Positions 2,381 to 63,651 of a stretch of DNA of 64,000 nt are shown here, piece after piece. The notes below the pieces were generated by a model. The model saw only the letters and a program-made list of their open reading frames with translations, did not search any database and was not told the origin of the DNA. Position numbers and translations under genes: made by a program. The stretch comes from Bacteroidales bacterium (GTDB taxonomy: Bacteria > Bacteroidota > Bacteroidia > Bacteroidales > VadinHA17): contig JAIVHO010000037.1 of assembly GCA_020201035.1 (NCBI GenBank), forward strand, positions 58,810 through 122,809, read 5' to 3'. Numbering within the stretch: the stretch's first letter is position 1; every line of letters begins with the position of its first letter.

Positions 2381-2491
2381 AATCCTCCTTCGCGTTCCGC
2401 TTCGGCGGACGAGAGGGTGTGGTTAAATTCCCCGGGGCTTGCCCCGGAAAGAAGGGTCCAGGGCTTGCCCTGGGGTATAATACCATTTATT
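2381..2491 (+). repeat. Interspersed repeat copy 1 (111 bp, three-tetraloop-hairpin family)
   Basis: Near-identical to 9390-9500, 51929-52039 and reverse complement of 53160-53244. Confidence 0.95.
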
Positions 2492-2708: not shown

Positions 2709-4091
2709 ATGGAAGAGAGGGTATTAAAAAGATCTGTTTTATGGGTTGCTACATTTTCCGCATTTCTGACACCTTTTATGGGAGCTGCAGTCAATCTTGC
2801 CCTTCCTGCGATAGGGAAAGACCTGGATGCCAATGCCATACAACTGAACTGGGTTGTTACCATATACCTCCTCTCAACCGCAGTATTCATTTTACCTGCC
2901 GGAAGGATGGGCGACATTGTCGGAAGAAAGAGGGTCTTTATAACCGGGCTGACACTCTTTACTGCCACTACCTTTGCAATAATATTTTCACCGTCAATCA
3001 ATATTTTTCTGATGCTTCGTGCCCTGCAGGGGGTCTCTTCCGCAATGATTTTCGGAACCAGCATGGCGATTATTACCTCAGTCTTTCCTCCCGGGGAGAG
3101 AGGTCAGGCACTGGGCATTAATATAACAGCCGTTTATGTGGGTTTATCAAGCGGCCCTTTTCTGGGTGGGCTGTTAACTGAGTATTTCGGCTGGAGAAGC
3201 ATCTTTACAGTACTCGTCCCCGTGGGAATGGGAGCAATACTACTTACCCGCCTGAGAATCAAAGCTGAATGGGCTGAAGCGAGGAATGAGAAACTTGATA
3301 TACCAGGATCGCTCCTTGCAGGTGCCGGACTAATACTCCTTATTTCAGGATTTTCAAAGATCCCCGGTATTAACGGTGCCATAATGAGCCTGTCGGGTAT
3401 AGTTCTTCTGCTTGCATTCTTTCTCTGGGAAAAAAGGGCCACTAATCCGCTGCTTGATCTCCGTCTGCTTGCTTCCAACAGGGTATTCAGCTTTTCAAAC
3501 CTTGCAGCACTGATCCATTACGCAGCAACATCGGCAATTGCCTTTTTCCTGAGTCTCTATCTCCAGTACCTGAAGGGCCTTGATCCAAGGACGGCCGGAC
3601 TGATACTGATGACCCAGCCCGTTATGATGGCCATCTTCTCAATACCGGCAGGCAGGCTGTCGGATCGTACTGACCCCGGAAGAATTGCTTCAACAGGCAT
3701 TGCACTCACCTCGGCAGGAATACTTCTGCTGACCTTTATCCGGACCGATACATCCCTCGCCTATATAATAGCCGTACTTGCACTTATAGGGGTGGGGTAC
3801 GCCCTATTTTCAAGCCCCAACAGCAATGCCATTATGAGTTCCGTGGAAAAAAAGCATCTGGGTGTTGCCTCCGGGATGCTCGGCACGATGAGGATGATAG
3901 GACAGACTATGAGCCTGGGTGTGGCAATGATACTTATGGCGCTGTTTCTGGGTTCCGAAAAGATCACTCCGGCAAACTATCCCGAACTGCTTGAAACAAT
4001 CCGGACAGGACTGATTATATTTGCACTTCTCTGTATTTCTGCAATATTTGCATCTCTTGCCAGGAACGGGAAAAGAGTCAGAACAAAATAA
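2709..4091 (+). CDS. MFS transporter, DHA2/EmrB-QacA-like family
   Basis: Multi-TM ORF, GRMGDIVGRKRVF MFS motif A and SAMIFGTSMAIITSVFPPGERGQALG. Confidence 0.85.
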   Translation: MEERVLKRSVLWVATFSAFLTPFMGAAVNLALPAIGKDLDANAIQLNWVVTIYLLSTAVFILPAGRMGDIVGRKRVFITGLTLFTATTFAIIFSPSINIFLMLRALQGVSSAMIFGTSMAIITSVFPPGERGQALGINITAVYVGLSSGPFLGGLLTEYFGWRSIFTVLVPVGMGAILLTRLRIKAEWAEARNEKLDIPGSLLAGAGLILLISGFSKIPGINGAIMSLSGIVLLLAFFLWEKRATNPLLDLRLLASNRVFSFSNLAALIHYAATSAIAFFLSLYLQYLKGLDPRTAGLILMTQPVMMAIFSIPAGRLSDRTDPGRIASTGIALTSAGILLLTFIRTDTSLAYIIAVLALIGVGYALFSSPNSNAIMSSVEKKHLGVASGMLGTMRMIGQTMSLGVAMILMALFLGSEKITPANYPELLETIRTGLIIFALLCISAIFASLARNGKRVRTK

Positions 4092-6964: not shown

Positions 6965-8713
6965 ATGATTAAGAGAACCATAAAAAGAGCTGCCCTTATT
7001 TCACTGCTGGTAATTACCGGTGTGATCTCTGCAGGCTATATTCTCAGAAATGAGAGTGACGATTTCAGGCTTATAAAGAATCTGGATATTTTCTACTCCC
7101 TGATCCGTGAGCTGAATACTTTCTATGTTGACGGCATTGATCCCGAAATACTTATACGTACCGGAATAGATGAGATGCTGGAGACGCTCGATCCTTACAC
7201 CGTCTATTATGCAGAGTCAGATATGGATGATCTCCGGTTTATGACAACCGGTAAGTACGGAGGGGTTGGGTCTCTTATCCGAAAAGAGGGTGATTATGCG
7301 GTACTGACTCAGATATACCGCGATTTTCCGGCCGACAGGGCGGGACTAAAAGCAGGAGACCTGCTGCTTGAAATTGACGGAACATCTCTTAAAGGGCTGC
7401 AGGTAGAGCAAATCAGCGACAGGTTGAAAGGGGATCCGGGTACAGATCTTATAATAAAGGTCCGCCGGGGAAATGAAGATATATCAGCGAAGCTGACGCG
7501 GAAGAGAATCTCCATACCACCTGTTCCCTGGTTCGGTATGGTTGATTCAGAAATTGGTTATATCCGCTTTACCAATTTTACCCAGGACTGCAGCAATGAT
7601 GTACGCAAGGCGCTGGAAACACTGAAGGAGAAGCATGGCGCCACAAGGGTCATCCTCGACCTGAGGGGTAATCCGGGAGGACTTCTGCCGGAAGCTGTAA
7701 AGATTGTGAATCTCTTTGTGGGACCCGGTCACGAAGTTGTAAGTACCAGAGGCAAGGTAAACCAGTATGACGGAACATACAAAACCACCTCAAAAGCTGT
7801 TGATGAGACAATTCCGCTGGTTGTAATGATCAATAACAATTCGGCCTCGGCTTCTGAGATCGTTGCAGGAGCAATCCAGGATCTTGACAGGGGTATTATT
7901 GTGGGACAGCGCTCCTACGGTAAAGGACTGGTGCAGATAAGCCGCCCGCTGAGCTATAATACATCACTTAAGGTAACAACTGCAAAATACTATATACCAA
8001 GCGGTAGGTGCATCCAGACCCTTGATTTTGCACACAGGAATGAGGATGGCTCGGTTGGTTTTATTCCCGATTCATTGACCAGTGAATTCAAAACCAGAAA
8101 TGGCAGGATTGTAAAGGATGGCGGCGGTATACTTCCAGATTATTCCGTTGAATCGATGCGCCTGAGTCAGGTAGCCACCGAACTTTACCTGAGATCCTAT
8201 ATCTTTGATTATGCCACTCTTTTTGCCCGCCGGCACGACTCAGTTCCACTGCCGGGTGAATTCAGCCTTGGTGAAAAGGAGTATTCAGAATTTGCGGATT
8301 ATATTAAAAGCAGGGACTTCACCTACCGCAGCGCCACTTCTATTGCCCTTGAACGGCTGGAGGGTGCAGCACGCCATGAGAAGTATTACGAAACCGAAAA
8401 GGAGCTTTTTGACTCTCTACGCATAAATCTTGGACAGAATATTGACAAGGACCTGGATCTTTTCAGGGAGGAGATACAGAAACTGCTCGAGGATGAAATT
8501 ATCGGAAGGTACTATTATGAAGAGGGAGTAATAATACACACCCTGAAAGATGATAACCAGATAAAGAGAGCTCTTGAAATTTTGAATGACAGATCCCTTT
8601 ACAGCTCCACTCTCAATGGCACTTCAGGCAGTCTCACTTCATCGGCCGGCAATGGATCACGATCTGTTAACCGTTTAAATATCAGCACCTATGGATTATC
8701 CGTCTCTTGTTAA
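6965..8713 (+). CDS. S41-family C-terminal processing peptidase
   Basis: PDZ domain (GLKAGDLLLEIDGTSLKG), catalytic NNSASASEIVAGAIQD...GKGLVQ. Confidence 0.92.
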   Translation: MIKRTIKRAALISLLVITGVISAGYILRNESDDFRLIKNLDIFYSLIRELNTFYVDGIDPEILIRTGIDEMLETLDPYTVYYAESDMDDLRFMTTGKYGGVGSLIRKEGDYAVLTQIYRDFPADRAGLKAGDLLLEIDGTSLKGLQVEQISDRLKGDPGTDLIIKVRRGNEDISAKLTRKRISIPPVPWFGMVDSEIGYIRFTNFTQDCSNDVRKALETLKEKHGATRVILDLRGNPGGLLPEAVKIVNLFVGPGHEVVSTRGKVNQYDGTYKTTSKAVDETIPLVVMINNNSASASEIVAGAIQDLDRGIIVGQRSYGKGLVQISRPLSYNTSLKVTTAKYYIPSGRCIQTLDFAHRNEDGSVGFIPDSLTSEFKTRNGRIVKDGGGILPDYSVESMRLSQVATELYLRSYIFDYATLFARRHDSVPLPGEFSLGEKEYSEFADYIKSRDFTYRSATSIALERLEGAARHEKYYETEKELFDSLRINLGQNIDKDLDLFREEIQKLLEDEIIGRYYYEEGVIIHTLKDDNQIKRALEILNDRSLYSSTLNGTSGSLTSSAGNGSRSVNRLNISTYGLSVSC

Positions 8714-9125
8714 CGGAGCTATTGATCCTGAAACCATTTCAGGCATATTAAGAACGTCGCAGGAAGATACAGGTGCCGGGGCTCACTCGCTCTTTCTGGG
8801 GCAGGTACGGGCCGATATGGCCGACAAAAGGGAGGTAAGGGCTATAGAGTATTCAGCCTATAAAGAGATGGTTGACAGCGAGGCTGACCGCATCAGAAAA
8901 GTAACAACAGATGCCTTTCCCGATATCAGGGATATTGTGATTGTACACTCCACAGGCATAGTAAAGGCCGGGGAGGTCTCTCTTCTTGTCATTGTCACTG
9001 CCGGTCACCGTGATCAGGCCACAAGGGGTTGCCGGCATGTTCTTGAGCTGATAAAAAGCAGTTATCCCGTATGGAAAAAGGAGCTCTTTGATGATGACTC
9101 CTCGAGGTGGGCCGAGAACCACTGA
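8691..9125 (+). CDS. moaE: Molybdopterin synthase catalytic subunit MoaE
   Basis: EYSAYKEMVDSE, VHSTGIVKAGEVSLLVIVTAGHR, WKKE motifs. Confidence 0.88.
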   Translation: MDYPSLVNGAIDPETISGILRTSQEDTGAGAHSLFLGQVRADMADKREVRAIEYSAYKEMVDSEADRIRKVTTDAFPDIRDIVIVHSTGIVKAGEVSLLVIVTAGHRDQATRGCRHVLELIKSSYPVWKKELFDDDSSRWAENH

Positions 9126-9365: not shown

Positions 9366-9389
9366 CTGTTCGTTTTCTTATTTGTTTTT

Positions 9390-9500
9390 AATCCACCTTC
9401 GCGTTCCGCTTCGGCGGACGAGAGGGTGTGGTTAAATTCCCCGGGGCTTGCCCCGGAAAGATGGGTCCAGGGCTTGCCCTGGGGCATAATACCATTTATT
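9390..9500 (+). repeat. Interspersed repeat copy 2 (111 bp)
   Basis: Near-identical to 2381-2491. Confidence 0.95.
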
Positions 9501-9629: not shown

Positions 9630-12449
9630 TCAGTGAGCCTCAAGCCAGTTACTCCCTGCTCCCCATTCAACAATAAGGGGCACTGCCAGTTCAGTGGCAG
9701 ATGACATCTTCTTAAGCACCATTCCCCTGAGAGAGTCCAAGTCGGCATCCGTTACTTCAAAAACCAGTTCATCATGCACCTGCATAATCATCCTGGCATT
9801 AAGACCTGACGCACTGAGTTCCCTGTCAATATCAATCATTGCTATCTTGATAATATCAGCAGCGGAACCTTGTATGGGAGCGTTAATTGCGTTCCGTTCG
9901 GCGTTACTCCTGAGCAATGCGTTTCTGGAATTTATATCCCTTAGCTCCCTCCTGCGTCCGTAAATAGTTGTAACATAACCCCTCTCCCTTGCTTCTCCTA
10001 TGCACCTGTCCATATACTCTTTTACTCCAGGATAACTCTCAAAATAGCCATCTATCAGCTCTTTTGCCTCTGAGCGACTGATATTTAGACGCTGTGAAAG
10101 ACCGTAGGCTGAGATACCGTATATAATACCAAAGTTGGCTGTCTTGGCCTTTGCCCTCATCTCTCTGGTTACCTCGCGGGGATCAACACCAAAAATCTTT
10201 GATGCAGTGGCAGAGTGAATATCCACCTCCCCCATAAAATCATCAATCATCGCCCTATCGCCGCTTAAATGAGCCATCAGTCTCAGTTCAATCTGGGAAT
10301 AGTCGGCAGCAAAAAACCTGTAGCCACCGGCAGGGATAAATGCTTTTCTGATCTCCCTGCCCCGTTCATCCCTTACCGGGATATTCTGAAGATTGGGATT
10401 GTTTGAGCTAAGTCGTCCCGTTGCCGCCACCGCCTGGTTATATGAGGTGTGAATTCTGCCGGTAGCCTGGTTTACCAGTGCCGGAAGTGCCTCCACGTAA
10501 GTTGAGAGCAGTTTTTTCAGACCCCGGTACTCCAGCACTTTACCAACCACCGGGTGTCTGTGTGTGAGTCGCTGCAGTACCTCCTCGTTGGTTACAAACT
10601 GTCGCGTTTTAGTCTTTCTGGCCTTATCATCCAGCTTTAGCTTAAGAAAAAGAACATCCCCAAGCTGTTTTGGTGATGAGATATTAAACTCTGTTCCTGT
10701 AAGAGCATAAATCTCCCTTTCAAGAGCAATAATATCGGTTCGTAAATCTTCCGCAACTGCCGTGATCTCTCCACTGTTTATCTCTACTCCATGCCGTTCC
10801 ATCCTTGCCAGCACAGGAATAAGAGGCATTTCAATCCTTTGTGCCAGGTCACTCAGGTTCATCTCTTCAAGCATCTTCCCAAACACTCCGGCAAGCTGCC
10901 AGGTAACATCAGCGTCTTCCACTGCATACTCACATACCAGTGTGGGATCAACAGATCTCATGCTCTTCTGGCCCTTTCCTTTCTCACCTATCAGGGACTC
11001 TATCGGAACGGGTTTATATGAGAGATAGTTTTCCGAAAGGAGGTCCATATTATGACGCATATCCGGTTCAATCAGGTAATGGGCGATCATCGTATCAAAC
11101 AGTGGTCCCCTGACCTCAATGCCGTAACCCGCCAGCACCTGGATATCATACTTCAGGTTCTGGCCTGTCTTAGTGATATTTTCATCTTGCAGAAGGGGTA
11201 TAAAGGGCTTCAGCATTTCCGCGGCCTCCTCCTTCTCTTCAGGTATCCACACAAGGTATCCCTTCCCCTTCTCCCATGAAAAGGCAATGGCTACCAGTGA
11301 GGCCTCAAGGGGGTTGATGGATGTTGTCTCAGTATCAAAGCAGAAATTGTTTAGTTGTGACATCCTCTCTGCCAGAGCTGCTGCCTCATTTTTTTCCATG
11401 ATAAGGGTATACTCATGAGGAGTGCTTTCGATATCAGCTGCCTGAGAAACCTTCATACCTCTCTCCTGGGAGCCAAAAAGAGAGCCCTGCTGCGGACCCG
11501 GCGATGATTCCATGGCTGTCCCGGCATCGCTGTCCCCTTCACCATGTTCATCCCCGGTAATTGTGTTGCTTAAGGGAAGCTTTGATGCCATTGACCTGAA
11601 CTCCAGCTCTTCATATATACTCCTTAACTTACCGGCATCAGGCTCACCCCTCAGCATATTCTCCTCACTGAACTCAACGGGCACCCCCGTTTCAATGGTA
11701 ACCAGCCGTTTTGAAAACAGCAGCTTTTCACTGTACTCCCTGATAACCTCCTGCTGCTTACCTTTCAATTCATCACTTCTCTCTATAAGGTTTTCAACCG
11801 ATCCAAACTGAGCTATCAGTTTTCGGGCGGTTTTTGGACCTATGCCCGGAGCTCCGGGCACGTTATCTGCCGTATCACCCATCAGGGCCAGAACATCAAT
11901 CACCTGCAGCGGCTCCTGAACCATAAACTCACTCTTTACCTCCCTTACACCCCATATATCGGCACCGCCACCGGCCCGTGCAGGTTTATATATCAGCACA
12001 TTATCCCGTACCAGCTGAGCAAAGTCCTTGTCGGGGGTCATCATATAGGTAACGAAACCCCTCTCCGAGGCCTGCCATGCTATTGTTCCTATTACATCAT
12101 CAGCCTCAAAGCCATCAACCTGCAGGATCGGTATCCCGAAACCTTCCAGAATAGATTTGATATACGGAACCGCCAGTTTAATATCCTCGGGGGTCGCATC
12201 CCTGTTAGCCTTGTATTCGCTGTATATAACGTGCCTGAAGGTAGGAGTAGGCGGATCAAAGGCAACTGCTATATGAGAGGGGTTCTGCTTCTGCAGCAGC
12301 TCCTCCAGGGTAAGCAGAAAACCGAAAATGGCGGAAGTATTCATTCCCCGGGAGTTGATCCTGGGGTTTTTTATAAAAGCATAATAGGATCTGTATATCA
12401 ACGCATAGGCGTCTAAAAGAAACAGTTTCTTTCCGGGTCTTTCCTGCAT
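9630..12449 (-). CDS. polA: DNA polymerase I
   Basis: 5'-3' exo (KLFLLDAYALIYRSYYAF), 3'-5' exo (FDTETTSINP), polymerase (DYSQIELRLMAHLSGD, QVHDELVFEV). Confidence 0.97.
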   Translation of the reverse strand: MQERPGKKLFLLDAYALIYRSYYAFIKNPRINSRGMNTSAIFGFLLTLEELLQKQNPSHIAVAFDPPTPTFRHVIYSEYKANRDATPEDIKLAVPYIKSILEGFGIPILQVDGFEADDVIGTIAWQASERGFVTYMMTPDKDFAQLVRDNVLIYKPARAGGGADIWGVREVKSEFMVQEPLQVIDVLALMGDTADNVPGAPGIGPKTARKLIAQFGSVENLIERSDELKGKQQEVIREYSEKLLFSKRLVTIETGVPVEFSEENMLRGEPDAGKLRSIYEELEFRSMASKLPLSNTITGDEHGEGDSDAGTAMESSPGPQQGSLFGSQERGMKVSQAADIESTPHEYTLIMEKNEAAALAERMSQLNNFCFDTETTSINPLEASLVAIAFSWEKGKGYLVWIPEEKEEAAEMLKPFIPLLQDENITKTGQNLKYDIQVLAGYGIEVRGPLFDTMIAHYLIEPDMRHNMDLLSENYLSYKPVPIESLIGEKGKGQKSMRSVDPTLVCEYAVEDADVTWQLAGVFGKMLEEMNLSDLAQRIEMPLIPVLARMERHGVEINSGEITAVAEDLRTDIIALEREIYALTGTEFNISSPKQLGDVLFLKLKLDDKARKTKTRQFVTNEEVLQRLTHRHPVVGKVLEYRGLKKLLSTYVEALPALVNQATGRIHTSYNQAVAATGRLSSNNPNLQNIPVRDERGREIRKAFIPAGGYRFFAADYSQIELRLMAHLSGDRAMIDDFMGEVDIHSATASKIFGVDPREVTREMRAKAKTANFGIIYGISAYGLSQRLNISRSEAKELIDGYFESYPGVKEYMDRCIGEARERGYVTTIYGRRRELRDINSRNALLRSNAERNAINAPIQGSAADIIKIAMIDIDRELSASGLNARMIMQVHDELVFEVTDADLDSLRGMVLKKMSSATELAVPLIVEWGAGSNWLEAH

Positions 12450-21513: not shown

Positions 21514-21721
21514 GGTTTCGGTTTGCAGGTTTAAACCGCAATATACAACTAAGTGATAACCTATAGATATTACTATTGCAACAGAATCTTTAAAATTAAC
21601 AATAAAAAGGAGGTTATTGTTTCCTGGCAGGATATGACTGGCTATATAACTCTGGCAGGCAGTTTCTGATTACTGCTTCTGAATGATTATCGCTGGCTCC
21701 GTACCAACTCTACTCTCTCTG

Positions 21722-21930
21722 CCAGGTCCCGCCCTTTAATGCCTGTGGGTGAACATTGATTCAGCCAGCGTGTGTCAGGTCAGCCCTTGAATGCCTGTGG
21801 GTGAATATTGATTCAGCCAGCGTGTGCCAGGTCAGCCCTTGAATGCCTGTGGGTGAATATTGATTCAGCCAGCGTGTGCCAGGTCAGCCCTTGAATGCCT
21901 GTGGGTGAATATTGATTCAGCCAGCGTGTG
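21722..21930 (-). repeat. Tandem repeat, 52-bp unit x4, overlapping 3' end of DUF134 gene
   Basis: Units 21722-21774 (53 bp), 21775-21826, 21827-21878, 21879-21930 near identical. Confidence 0.95.
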
Positions 21931-22195
21931 CCAGGATTGTTTTGCCTTCCACAAAAGCTCTTGCAATTGTCCTGAGGGCCCTGTTATAGATTCGTGTAAG
22001 TGTTGGCCGTGAGATATTCATAAAATCAGCTGCTTCCTCCTGAGAGAGGCCATCATATTCCACGAGCCTGAGGCTTTCATACTCCTCTATCTTAAGAAGA
22101 GCCTCTCCTGGTGTATATGTAGCTATTCCAAACGGCTTAAAACCCTCCATTCTGGGTGGTGATACCACCTTTCTCTCCTTACGCGGTCTTGCCAT
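21917..22195 (-). CDS. DUF134-family putative DNA-binding (HTH) protein
   Basis: MARPRKERKV...ESLRLVEYDGLSQEEAADFMNISRPTLTRIYNRALRTIA. Confidence 0.88.
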   Translation of the reverse strand: MARPRKERKVVSPPRMEGFKPFGIATYTPGEALLKIEEYESLRLVEYDGLSQEEAADFMNISRPTLTRIYNRALRTIARAFVEGKTILAHAG

Positions 22196-29392: not shown

Positions 29393-29474
29393 ATCCCAAA
29401 GGACAACTATCCCAAAGGACAACTATCCTAAAGGACAACCATCCCAAAGGGACAACCATCCCAAAGGGACAACT
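29393..29474 (+). repeat. Short tandem repeat, 16/17-bp unit x5 (ATCCCAAAGGGACAACY)
   Basis: Units of 16,16,16,17,17 bp between uvrC 5' end and ade 3' end. Confidence 0.9.
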
Positions 29475-50795: not shown

Positions 50796-51923
50796 ATGGC
50801 AGGTATCTACATTCATATTCCTTTCTGCAAAAAGCGGTGTCACTACTGTGATTTTTACAAGACCACAAATATGGAGTTAATGTCATTGTGCGTTTTTGCT
50901 CTTGCCAGAGAGATGGAGTTACGATCCGATTATCTGGAGGGAAAAGAGATAGAAACAATTTATGTTGGCGGAGGAACCCCTTCTCTCTTACACAGGAAAC
51001 AGGCACATCTTATACTGGAAAGTATAAAGACCCGATTTAAAACTGCAAATAATACCGAGATTACAATAGAAGTTAACCCGGAAGATATTACACCAACTGT
51101 TGCCGGGGATCTGATTAAAACAGGATTTAACAGGGTAAGTGTAGGGGTTCAGTCGTGGAATAACAAAGTTCTGAGATCAATGAACCGGCGACATACATGC
51201 AGGCAGGCCCACAGGGCTATAGATAACCTTCAGGATGCAGGTTTTACCAATATTTCCCTTGATCTTATTTACGGCATACCCGGATTAACCAGTCAGGAGT
51301 GGGAGGCAGATCTTGATATTACATTTAAAAAGAATATAAAACATCTCAGCTGCTATCATCTTACTATTGAGCCGAGCACTGTTTTTGGCTCCATGAAAGA
51401 GAAGGGCCTGCTCTCCGAGATAGATGAGGAGGAGAGTGAAAGACAATTCTCCATTCTTACCACCCGAACCAGGGAAATGGGGTTTGTCCACTACGAGATC
51501 TCAAATTTTTGTCTTGAAGGGTATTATTCAAAACATAACAGGGGATACTGGGAGCAGAGTCATTATCTTGGTATTGGTCCGTCAGCTCACAGTTTTAACG
51601 GCTATTCCCGGGAGTGGAATATAAGTGATATAAGGGGTTATTTAAAATCTATAGGAATGGATTTGGTGCCGTCAGAGAGAGAGATTCTGGATGAAGGAAT
51701 GAAGTATAATGAATATATTATGACCTCCCTGAGAACAATGTGGGGAATTGAACCGGCTTATATAGATGCTGAATTCGGGAAGGAAATGTATGATTATCTT
51801 ATAAATATGGCCAGCCGGTATTTCCGGTACGGCTTATTAGAAAAAGTAAGCAATGGCAGAATTGTTCTTACCACGCAGGGCAAAATGACCGCCGACAATA
51901 TTATAAAAGGCCTGATGAAATAG
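50796..51923 (+). CDS. hemW: Radical SAM heme chaperone / coproporphyrinogen oxidase-like HemW
   Basis: IYIHIPFCKKRCHYCDFYKT, YVGGGTPSLL, NRVSVGVQSWNNKVLRSMNRRH. Confidence 0.93.
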   Translation: MAGIYIHIPFCKKRCHYCDFYKTTNMELMSLCVFALAREMELRSDYLEGKEIETIYVGGGTPSLLHRKQAHLILESIKTRFKTANNTEITIEVNPEDITPTVAGDLIKTGFNRVSVGVQSWNNKVLRSMNRRHTCRQAHRAIDNLQDAGFTNISLDLIYGIPGLTSQEWEADLDITFKKNIKHLSCYHLTIEPSTVFGSMKEKGLLSEIDEEESERQFSILTTRTREMGFVHYEISNFCLEGYYSKHNRGYWEQSHYLGIGPSAHSFNGYSREWNISDIRGYLKSIGMDLVPSEREILDEGMKYNEYIMTSLRTMWGIEPAYIDAEFGKEMYDYLINMASRYFRYGLLEKVSNGRIVLTTQGKMTADNIIKGLMK

Positions 51924-51928
51924 GCTTC

Positions 51929-52039
51929 AATCCACCTTCGCGTTCCGCTTCGGCGGACGAGAGAGTGTGGTTAAATTCCCCGGGGCTTGCCCCGGAAAGA
52001 AGGGTCCAGGGCTTGCCCTGGGGTATAATACCATTTATT
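51929..52039 (+). repeat. Interspersed repeat copy 3 (111 bp)
   Basis: Near-identical to 2381-2491. Confidence 0.95.
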
Positions 52040-52054: not shown

Positions 52055-52963
52055 CTATTTAAGCATAAAACTTCCGGTACCTATAAGTTCTCCCTCCAGG
52101 TAAAGTTCAACACTGTAGGTTCCCTCGATAAAGTCACCGTTGTTATCAACATATATACACACTTCCACATCCTGATTGAGATAGTCAACCGTTCGGCTTT
52201 CCGTGTATATAAGATTTTCACCTCCAGCCTGAAAAACATTATCCGGAGAAACAGTAACAAGCAGGGAGTCGGGTCGTAAAACTCTCATATATATTGTTTT
52301 GCTTCCGGCCTCGACAATAGCATTCTCCCTTAAAGTAAAACAAACCATCAGATTGACCATTCTGGATATACGGTCAGTCTCCTTTCTTCTCTGATTAAGA
52401 GGGGTAGGGCGAATGTCCTTTGCCTGAATAACGGAGGCAATCTCCACCTTGGTTGAAAGTTCCTCCCTTACCTTTGAAAGCTCCTGGTTGGATTGTTCAA
52501 AACGGCTTATCTGTTCCTTTATTTCAATATTTTCCGCCACCAGCAGTTTATTCCTTGTATTAAGGGAATCTATCTGTACAATATAGCTTTTCATAATATC
52601 TCTCATGGTACCTATTTCCTTCTTATAGGTACGTATCAGCTGTGCATTTGATGCATTTATTGAGAGGAGCCTCTCTATCTTCTCCTGTTCTTCAACCAGC
52701 TTGGCATTGAGGGTATCATTATTGGTTTTCAGGGTATCATACCCGTGCATAAGCAGAACAAGTTCATTTGCCAGGGAATCTTTCTCCTCTGTAAGGACAT
52801 TCTCCATTTCAACCATATTGTTCTTTTGCACAAAATAGAGTATGCCTACAGCAATAAGCGCGGTTGCAAGGATTGCGGTTGTAACAAACAGTATTACCGG
52901 GGTTTTGCTCCTGGCTGGTTTAATGTTTCCCCCTTTTTCACTATTAGCAGGTTGGTTTTCCAT
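52055..52963 (-). CDS. Membrane-anchored coiled-coil protein of unknown function
   Basis: One TM (VILFVTTAILATALIAVGILYFV) followed by long coiled coil and C-terminal beta region. Confidence 0.7.
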   Translation of the reverse strand: MENQPANSEKGGNIKPARSKTPVILFVTTAILATALIAVGILYFVQKNNMVEMENVLTEEKDSLANELVLLMHGYDTLKTNNDTLNAKLVEEQEKIERLLSINASNAQLIRTYKKEIGTMRDIMKSYIVQIDSLNTRNKLLVAENIEIKEQISRFEQSNQELSKVREELSTKVEIASVIQAKDIRPTPLNQRRKETDRISRMVNLMVCFTLRENAIVEAGSKTIYMRVLRPDSLLVTVSPDNVFQAGGENLIYTESRTVDYLNQDVEVCIYVDNNGDFIEGTYSVELYLEGELIGTGSFMLK

Positions 52964-53159: not shown

Positions 53160-53244
53160 AATAAATGGTATTATACCCCAGGGCAAGCCCCGGGGAATTT
53201 AACCACACCCTCTCGTCCGCCGAAGCGGAACGCGAAGGTGGATT
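53160..53244 (-). repeat. Interspersed repeat copy 4 (85 bp, internal 26-bp deletion)
   Basis: Reverse complement of family; collapsed between the two GGGCAAGCCC segments. Confidence 0.95.
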
Positions 53245-62718: not shown

Positions 62719-62792
62719 GGGCCCATAGCTCAGCTGGTCAGAGCACCTGACTCATAATCAGGGGGTCGCTGGTTCGAGCCCAGCTGGGCCCA
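62719..62792 (+). tRNA. tRNA with CAT anticodon (tRNA-Ile2 or elongator tRNA-Met)
   Basis: GGGCCCATAGCTCAGCTGGTCAGAGCACCTGACTCATAATCAGGGGGTCGCTGGTTCGAGCCCAGCTGGGCCCA; complete cloverleaf arms. Confidence 0.95.
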
Positions 62793-62824: not shown

Positions 62825-62839
62825 TTTGCTGGCTGGCCT

Positions 62840-62868
62840 CGAAGCCCCCGCGACAGTCTGTCTCCTCG
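62840..62868 (+). repeat. 29-bp direct repeat, left copy (CGAAGCCCCCGCGACAGTCTGTCTCCTCG)
   Basis: Identical to 63231-63259. Confidence 0.95.
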
Positions 62869-62877
62869 CTAAAATGA

Positions 62878-63216
62878 TCCCCCGGATCATTTATTAACGC
62901 TCGGTCCGGTTCGAGCCCAGCTGGGCCCACCTTAGCCCGCCATAGCTTTAGCAACGGCGGGCAAAGCCCACCAATCCAACAATTCTGGTATGTCTATATT
63001 CTGGACTGTCAGGATGGAAACCATTATACCGGATGTACTAATGACCTTGAAGACAGACTTAAACGCCATAGTTTAGGACAGGTTAAGGCAACAAAGGACA
63101 GATTGCCTGTCAAGCTAAAGACATATGTAGCATTTAACGATAAGTATAGGGCATATTACTTTGAGAGGTACTTGAAAAAAGGATCAGGTCGTGCCTTTGC
63201 AAAAAGGCATCTTTAA
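62878..63216 (+). CDS. GIY-YIG nuclease-domain ORF without ATG/GTG/TTG start (recognisable domain 62986-63216)
   Basis: WYVYILDCQDGNHYTGCTNDLEDRLKRHSLGQVKATKDRLPVKLKTYVAFNDKYRAYYFERYLKKGSGRAFAKRHL*; stop-bounded frame from 62878. Confidence 0.7.
   Translation, partial: SPGSFINARSGSSPAGPTLARHSFSNGGQSPPIQQFWYVYILDCQDGNHYTGCTNDLEDRLKRHSLGQVKATKDRLPVKLKTYVAFNDKYRAYYFERYLKKGSGRAFAKRHL
62908..62931 (+). repeat. Duplicated tRNA 3' end fragment
   Basis: GGTTCGAGCCCAGCTGGGCCCAC identical to tRNA T-arm/acceptor at 62771-62793. Confidence 0.93.
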
Positions 63217-63230
63217 GTTATTTCCGGTCC

Positions 63231-63259
63231 CGAAGCCCCCGCGACAGTCTGTCTCCTCG
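63231..63259 (+). repeat. 29-bp direct repeat, right copy
   Basis: Identical to 62840-62868. Confidence 0.95.
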
Positions 63260-63651
63260 GGGAAAAGATTGTAGGTGGTTTTTTTGTGGATGCCAGTTTG
63301 GCGCCAGGATTTGTGGAAAGGTTGGTGTTAAAAGTAACCATTTAAGTAATCAAATTAGATTATTAACTCAGTCGACTAACCTCTTGACTACCAGGGACAA
63401 TACTGGATTTTCCACCGGACTCCATTATGCTCTATACCACTACATTAGGAAAATAATGTACAGTTGTTTTTCCTATATACTCCACCTGTCTTTCTTTTGG
63501 CTGGCAAGTTTTCTGGCAAATGTAGTGCCAAATGCATGAATGCATTTTGTTAGGGAAGCTTCGCATTTGGATAACATTCAGCAGATGACCTAACAGTCTT
63601 CATTAGATTTAAACTATATGCTGGTTTGAATGAATATGCTATCCAAAATTG

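Follow-up and report, generated by a model that had tools for sequence, protein, structure and literature searches.

A dispersed three-hairpin repeat of a Bacteroidales genome is probably a palindrome-associated transposable element derived from an IS200/IS605-type insertion sequence

The window analysed here, the whole stretch of 64,000 nucleotides from contig JAIVHO010000037.1 of a Bacteroidales bacterium (VadinHA17), contains four copies of a short palindromic repeat. All four, first reported in an initial annotation made from the letters alone, were recovered by a sequence search of the window, and a search with CCGGGGCTTGCCCCGG gave 11 matches at ≤3 mismatches against 0.28 expected by chance. 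The copies lie where they had been placed, with the mobile unit itself bounded as listed below; the AA to its left is part of the target TTTAA (present as ATTAA at copy 1 and TTCAA at copy 3).

2383..2491, plus strand: copy 1, full-length element, left flank ATTAA; neighbours a D-Tyr-tRNA deacylase gene (1818-2315) and an MFS gene (2709-4091), co-directional
2384..2422, plus strand: copy 1 hairpin 1 (HP1), TTCG loop; an additional hairpin of the left-end linker that the autonomous IS does not have
2423..2427, plus strand: copy 1 proposed left guide (GL) TTAAA, complementary to target TTTAA, as judged from 30 IS left ends
2432..2447, plus strand: copy 1 hairpin 2 (HP2), the IS left-end hairpin
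2458..2473, plus strand: copy 1 hairpin 3 (HP3), the right-end hairpin, type A
2479..2491, plus strand: copy 1 right tip AATACCATTTATT, with right guide AATA and cleavage site TTTATT proposed from covariation
9392..9500, plus strand: copy 2, full-length, target TTTAA at 9387-9391; neighbours a MoaE gene (8691-9125, plus) and a DNA polymerase I gene (9630-12449, minus), convergent
51931..52039, plus strand: copy 3, full-length, left flank TTCAA; neighbours a radical-SAM gene (50796-51923, plus) and an unassigned gene at 52055-52963 (minus), convergent
53242..53160, minus strand: copy 4, short form in which a 26-bp deletion joins HP2 to HP3, with target TTTAA at 53247-53243; divergent intergenic region

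Copy 4, noted earlier as an inverted copy, is indeed present; it is not truncated and instead carries a precise 26-bp internal deletion. The sequence first quoted, AATCCACC, is the reading of the other copies; copy 1 has AATCCTCC. The three separate hairpins do not appear in the minimum-energy fold computed for a single own copy, in which hairpin 2 pairs with hairpin 3; the form with two distinct hairpins is supported by covariation in relatives (see below). The window also contains other repeats: a 26-bp tandem repeat directly downstream of copy 1 (2543-2640, 3.8 copies of GGAAAAGTGAGCAGGTGGCGTTACCG), a 52-bp tandem repeat at 21679-21935 (about 4 copies, 96% matches), a 16-bp tandem repeat at 29393-29474 (5 copies of ATCCCAAAGGACAACT), and a 44-bp repeat at 62835-62878 and 63226-63269 (86% identical) downstream of the tRNA gene at 62719-62792.

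The host assembly (2.83 Mb, 76 contigs, 94.5% complete) carries 50 copies rather than four, comprising 41 full-length copies, 7 short forms like window copy 4, all with the identical 26-bp deletion, and 2 truncated copies. The element is 107-109 bp long, non-coding, and has no transposase gene inside any of the 50 copies; the span from TCC to ATTTA is 107 nt in 38 full-length copies and 106 nt in 3, with TT next in most. The 38 full-length copies of modal length diverge from their consensus by 1.4% on average, and 10 are identical to it, so that the copy set is a recent, star-like expansion. Terminal inverted repeats are absent from the copies and the consensus, and the palindromes are near-terminal. 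As had been described for the window, the placement is essentially intergenic in every gene orientation across the genome (18 divergent, 8 convergent, 22 co-directional, 2 undetermined). The copies showed no preference for either orientation with respect to genes and no GC-skew bias, in an analysis of short flanks. At three loci (L016, L025, L089), the right tip of the element provides the stop codon (TAA) of the convergent neighbour gene.

TTTAA stands directly before the element in 40 of the 50 own copies and in 62 of 81 copies in relatives. Base composition is random more than about 7 bases to the left of the element and, on its right, immediately past ATTTA(T/A)(T/C); the left flank is variable and the right tip constant. 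Seven copies are inserted in a second repeat, a 90-bp leader located just upstream of start codons, of which 22 uninterrupted examples exist in the genome. The empty leader reads CAAATTTTTAATTAAC, in which CAAATTTTTAA runs directly into TTAAC, and the filled leader reads CAAATTTTTAA followed by TCCACC...ATACCATTTAW and then TTAAC. One unit is therefore inserted without target duplication beyond microhomology between end and target, with the boundary at these paralogous empty sites ambiguous by 1-3 nt (shared TTTA/TTTAAT). Copies in other species have TTTAA on the left and TTTGATT as right tip, so the TTTA at the right is part of the element itself. The leader (~90 bp, ..GCGAGAGCGAAGCGGTTCCATTCGTTCTCAAATTTTTAATTAACTTCTTGTCAGATAATTACAAAATTTTAAACGTATGAA) occurs in about 30 copies right before the start codons of many unrelated genes (in G000, e.g. 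L215-L234, L002, L009, L018, L019, L087, L088, L092) and itself has the appearance of a promoter/5′ leader that moves or has been copied.

By DNA search, 23 of the family's 98 genomes, spread over 11 of 15 genera, carry diverged homologues. Scanning GTDB genomes with the exact pattern of the own sequence gave no match, and a degenerate pattern picked up 37 loci, in MAGs that carry the labels Bacteroidales, Bacteroidota, Flavobacteriia/Flavobacteriaceae and, in one case, Chlorobiaceae; neither pattern matched viral contigs. The hairpins are modular across relatives. HP1 is nearly constant, and the alignment fold gave it only partial support. HP2 and HP3 vary in sequence and keep their pairing, so the compensatory stem changes that the initial annotation had proposed to look for are present in both. 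HP2 occurs as 39 distinct stems with 81% of stem cells paired versus 60% after shuffling, with all four Watson-Crick pair types at two positions and the loop CTTG or CTCTG retained. Two types of right end were distinguished, type A, to which the window element belongs (CCAGGGCTTGCCCTGGGGTATAATACCATTTATT), and type B (GATACCTCGCTGCTTGCGGCGAGGTAGTTCATT). The 82-bp type-A element L244 lacks HP1, indicating that HP1 was added to the left linker.

Several arrangements of these modules were seen in relatives. HP1 occurs alone after TTTAA, without HP2 and HP3, at L122 and L127 (MAG WY1.bin124), and it may be a mobile palindrome in its own right. Palindromic inserts of ~35-40 nt lie inside the HP1 or HP2 loop at L142 and L150-L154 (G002, G026) and at L067, L146, L147 and L173 (G037, G028); they recall the small mobile repeats that invade palindromes of PATEs (palindrome-associated transposable elements) in Haloquadratum. 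Tandem or mosaic HP1-HP2 arrays at L118, L120, L121 and L125 (MAG nzgw129) suggest module-wise amplification.

The left end of the element, TTTAA/TC...GGTTAAATTCCCCG-hairpin (the slash marking the element boundary), is that of an IS200-type insertion sequence (IS) of Bacteroidota. The left end TTTAATC...GG(T/A)TAAATTCCCCG followed by the hairpin is shared by about 30 tnpA-bearing ISs, whose layout is TTTAA/TCTCTTTGGGTTTAATTCCCCG-hairpin-tnpA-GATACC-hairpin-TTCATT/. Genome G304 carries five identical copies of such an IS, each preceded by TTTAA and ending in TTCATT, after which unrelated DNA follows. Their transposases belong to one group of Y1 proteins of ~150 residues (A1), the genes of which are flanked by the same left end as that of the element and by type-B right ends. 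The A1-group transposase matched the NCBIfam model transpos_IS200 at E=1e-35, with REP_Tyr_transpos below its cut-off, and in the PDB it matched 2xm3 (which we take to be ISDra2 TnpA) at 3e-21 and ISHp608 at 5e-15. The A1 profile matched 16 of the 394 genomes searched at order level and 15 of the 398 at phylum level. The right end of the autonomous IS is also that of type-B relatives (L099, L102, L108, L109, L128), and type-B miniature elements retain TTAAGATACC, the junction of the tnpA stop and the right end of the IS; because this tnpA end is retained, they look like core-deletion derivatives. The type-A right end has only the guide/cleavage rule and a CTTG-loop hairpin in common with the IS ends. 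A search next to the Y1 genes of 12 element-bearing genomes yielded no tnpA-bearing IS whose right end is of type A (HP3, then AATACCATTTATT), none of the best 20 Y1 genes had the full 5′ or 3′ ends of the element, and HP1 was in no IS seen.

In IS608, a guide located 5′ of each hairpin pairs with the cleavage sequences and thereby chooses the cut sites, with two Watson-Crick pairs at target positions -4/-3 (PMC5934647). Among 30 tnpA-bearing ISs, the last guide base before the left hairpin can pair with target -4 in all 30 (21 T:A, 9 C:G) and the preceding guide base with target -3 in 28 (25 T:A, 2 A:T, 1 G:C), counts that, like those for the right ends, share ancestry and are not independent trials. 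The left pairs change together across ISs, as in the IS608 guide rule: the target TCTAA occurs with the guide TTAG (one TTTG), TTTAA with ..AA (one ..TA), TTGAA with ..CA, and TTAAA or ATAAA with ..TA. At the right ends of ISs and type-B elements, N of NATACC pairs with N′ of TTN′ATT in 31 of 34 cases (20 G:C, 11 A:T). The guide/cleavage pair is found in 35 of 41 type-A right ends (26 A:T, 9 C:G), and four of the six exceptions are copies ending in TTTAATT, which are out of register in the pattern. The window element, with target TTTAA, guide TTAAA, right guide AATA and tip TTTATT, obeys both pairing rules; in type A, the guide-like NATA sits 3′ of the hairpin, not 5′ as in IS608. These sequence relationships are strong evidence that the window element would be a substrate of an IS200-class TnpA.

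Because the left end is shared with an IS200-type IS, and because of the guide/target and right-end covariation, the repeat is very probably a PATE, that is, a non-autonomous IS200/IS605 derivative of Bacteroidota moved in trans. The earlier description as REP/MITE-like thus holds in that the element is dispersed, non-coding, palindromic and transposable; it is neither a MITE with terminal inverted repeats nor a REP with its RAYT.

The alternative that fares best, a REP/BIME-type element mobilised by a RAYT (TnpA-REP, the domesticated Y1 class) rather than by an IS200-class TnpA, is unlikely. It would suit intergenic palindromes in a family where Y1 genes, RAYT-like and other, are common (71 of 98 genomes) and occur in 21 of 23 element-positive versus 50 of 75 other genomes (Fisher p=0.03, phylogeny ignored). 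Most Y1 genes examined in the family are, however, flanked by other palindromes, including those in the element-rich genomes G080, G078 and G020, and no RAYT was flanked by the element. The consensus shows no GTAG-type tag at the hairpin foot, and the left end, linker, guide rule and target all match IS200-type ISs. A Y1 helper, as the initial annotation had predicted, was found in relatives and is not detectable in the host genome, where the assembly (5.5% missing) contains nothing that matches Y1 at E≤0.001 or A1 at E≤10. REPs with a CGTC tag were considered separately and rejected, as their stem and tail rules differ.

That the copies represent a dispersed functional structured RNA or a transcription terminator, kept for regulation, is much less probable. 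The RNA fold is strong (z=-5.4), with ultra-stable tetraloops, compensatory changes and an intergenic position, and the initial annotation had raised a structured RNA as one reading. Insertion at the fixed target TTTAA without gene-orientation bias, the empty insertion sites, the star-like recent copies and the lack of a matching Rfam family contradict it, and the conservation of the stems is explained by recognition of single-stranded DNA hairpins. A classical MITE of a DDE transposon is slightly less probable again, since the terminal inverted repeats of such an element are absent, no target duplication beyond the ambiguous TTTA/TTTAAT is seen at empty sites, and a left flank that varies beside a constant right tip does not fit; being short, multi-copy and non-coding is what the two have in common. 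An assembly or segmental duplication artefact, suggested by high identity and nothing more, can practically be dismissed, given the many contigs, the unrelated flanks and the presence of the family in independently assembled genomes.

Under the PATE interpretation, the element is a miniature that lacks the transposase gene and retains the left-end hairpin HP2 with its 5′ guide, the right-end hairpin HP3 and the terminal cleavage site, with the extra hairpin HP1 carried in the left linker. When the region becomes single-stranded, a Y1 (HUH) TnpA supplied in trans would bind the hairpins, and the guides beside them would pair with TTTAA at the left flank and TTTATT at the right tip, positioning the cuts. 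The element would then exit as a single-stranded circle and re-insert 3′ of another TTTAA. The strand, the circle and the movement in trans by a group A1 TnpA are inferred from the family. The helper absent from the assembly may have been lost after the burst, may be unassembled, or may be of another kind. A more tentative proposal, which we consider possible and not favoured, is that type-A elements have a structurally distinct single-strand transposon end, in which the right guide lies beside the cleavage site, 3′ of the hairpin, and HP1 brings target and guide together; a TnpA able to cope with such an arrangement, or specialised for it, may move these elements.

On the PATE reading, a hairpin repeat that is widespread in uncultured Bacteroidota is explained as mobile DNA and not RNA. 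The natural variation in guide/target pairing (TTTAA, TCTAA, TTGAA and TTAAA with matching guides) makes the IS608 rule readable and testable.

The closest known system is the PATEs of Haloquadratum walsbyi, which are too short to code and have near-terminal IS605-like palindromes, no terminal inverted repeats, no target duplication, a conserved terminal target oligonucleotide, homogeneous copies and deletions between similar palindromes (PMC3119063), all of which the window element shares. It differs from them in its Bacteroidota host, its IS200-group ends with GGTTTAATTCCCCG left ends, the target TTTAA, HP1 in the left linker, and a right-end type not seen on an autonomous element. On every testable point of the published PATE description (PMC3119063) it agrees, except for a full right-end match to an autonomous element. 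It resembles IS608 of Helicobacter pylori in the subterminal hairpins, the 5′ guides pairing with the left target (-4/-3) and the right cleavage site (PMC5934647), and insertion 3′ of a short target, and the TnpA of the relatives' ISs is related; in contrast to IS608, it is geneless, its target is TTTAA versus TTAC, and its right guide lies between hairpin and cleavage site. With the REP/REPIN/RAYT systems (PMC3733652, PMC6006769) it has in common intergenic palindromes tied to Y1 HUH enzymes, whereas it lacks a build of GTAG- or CGTC-type tag plus tail and is about 109 bp long with three hairpins. A PATE-like sequence of Halanaerobium hydrogeniformans is likewise an ends-only derivative of IS605 (PMC7290912); that sequence is a single copy of 271 nt, compared with about 50 copies of 109 nt here. 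No description of this element family was found among openly licensed papers. The kind of element is thus already known, and what is new here is the Bacteroidota host, the three hairpins and the unusual right end.
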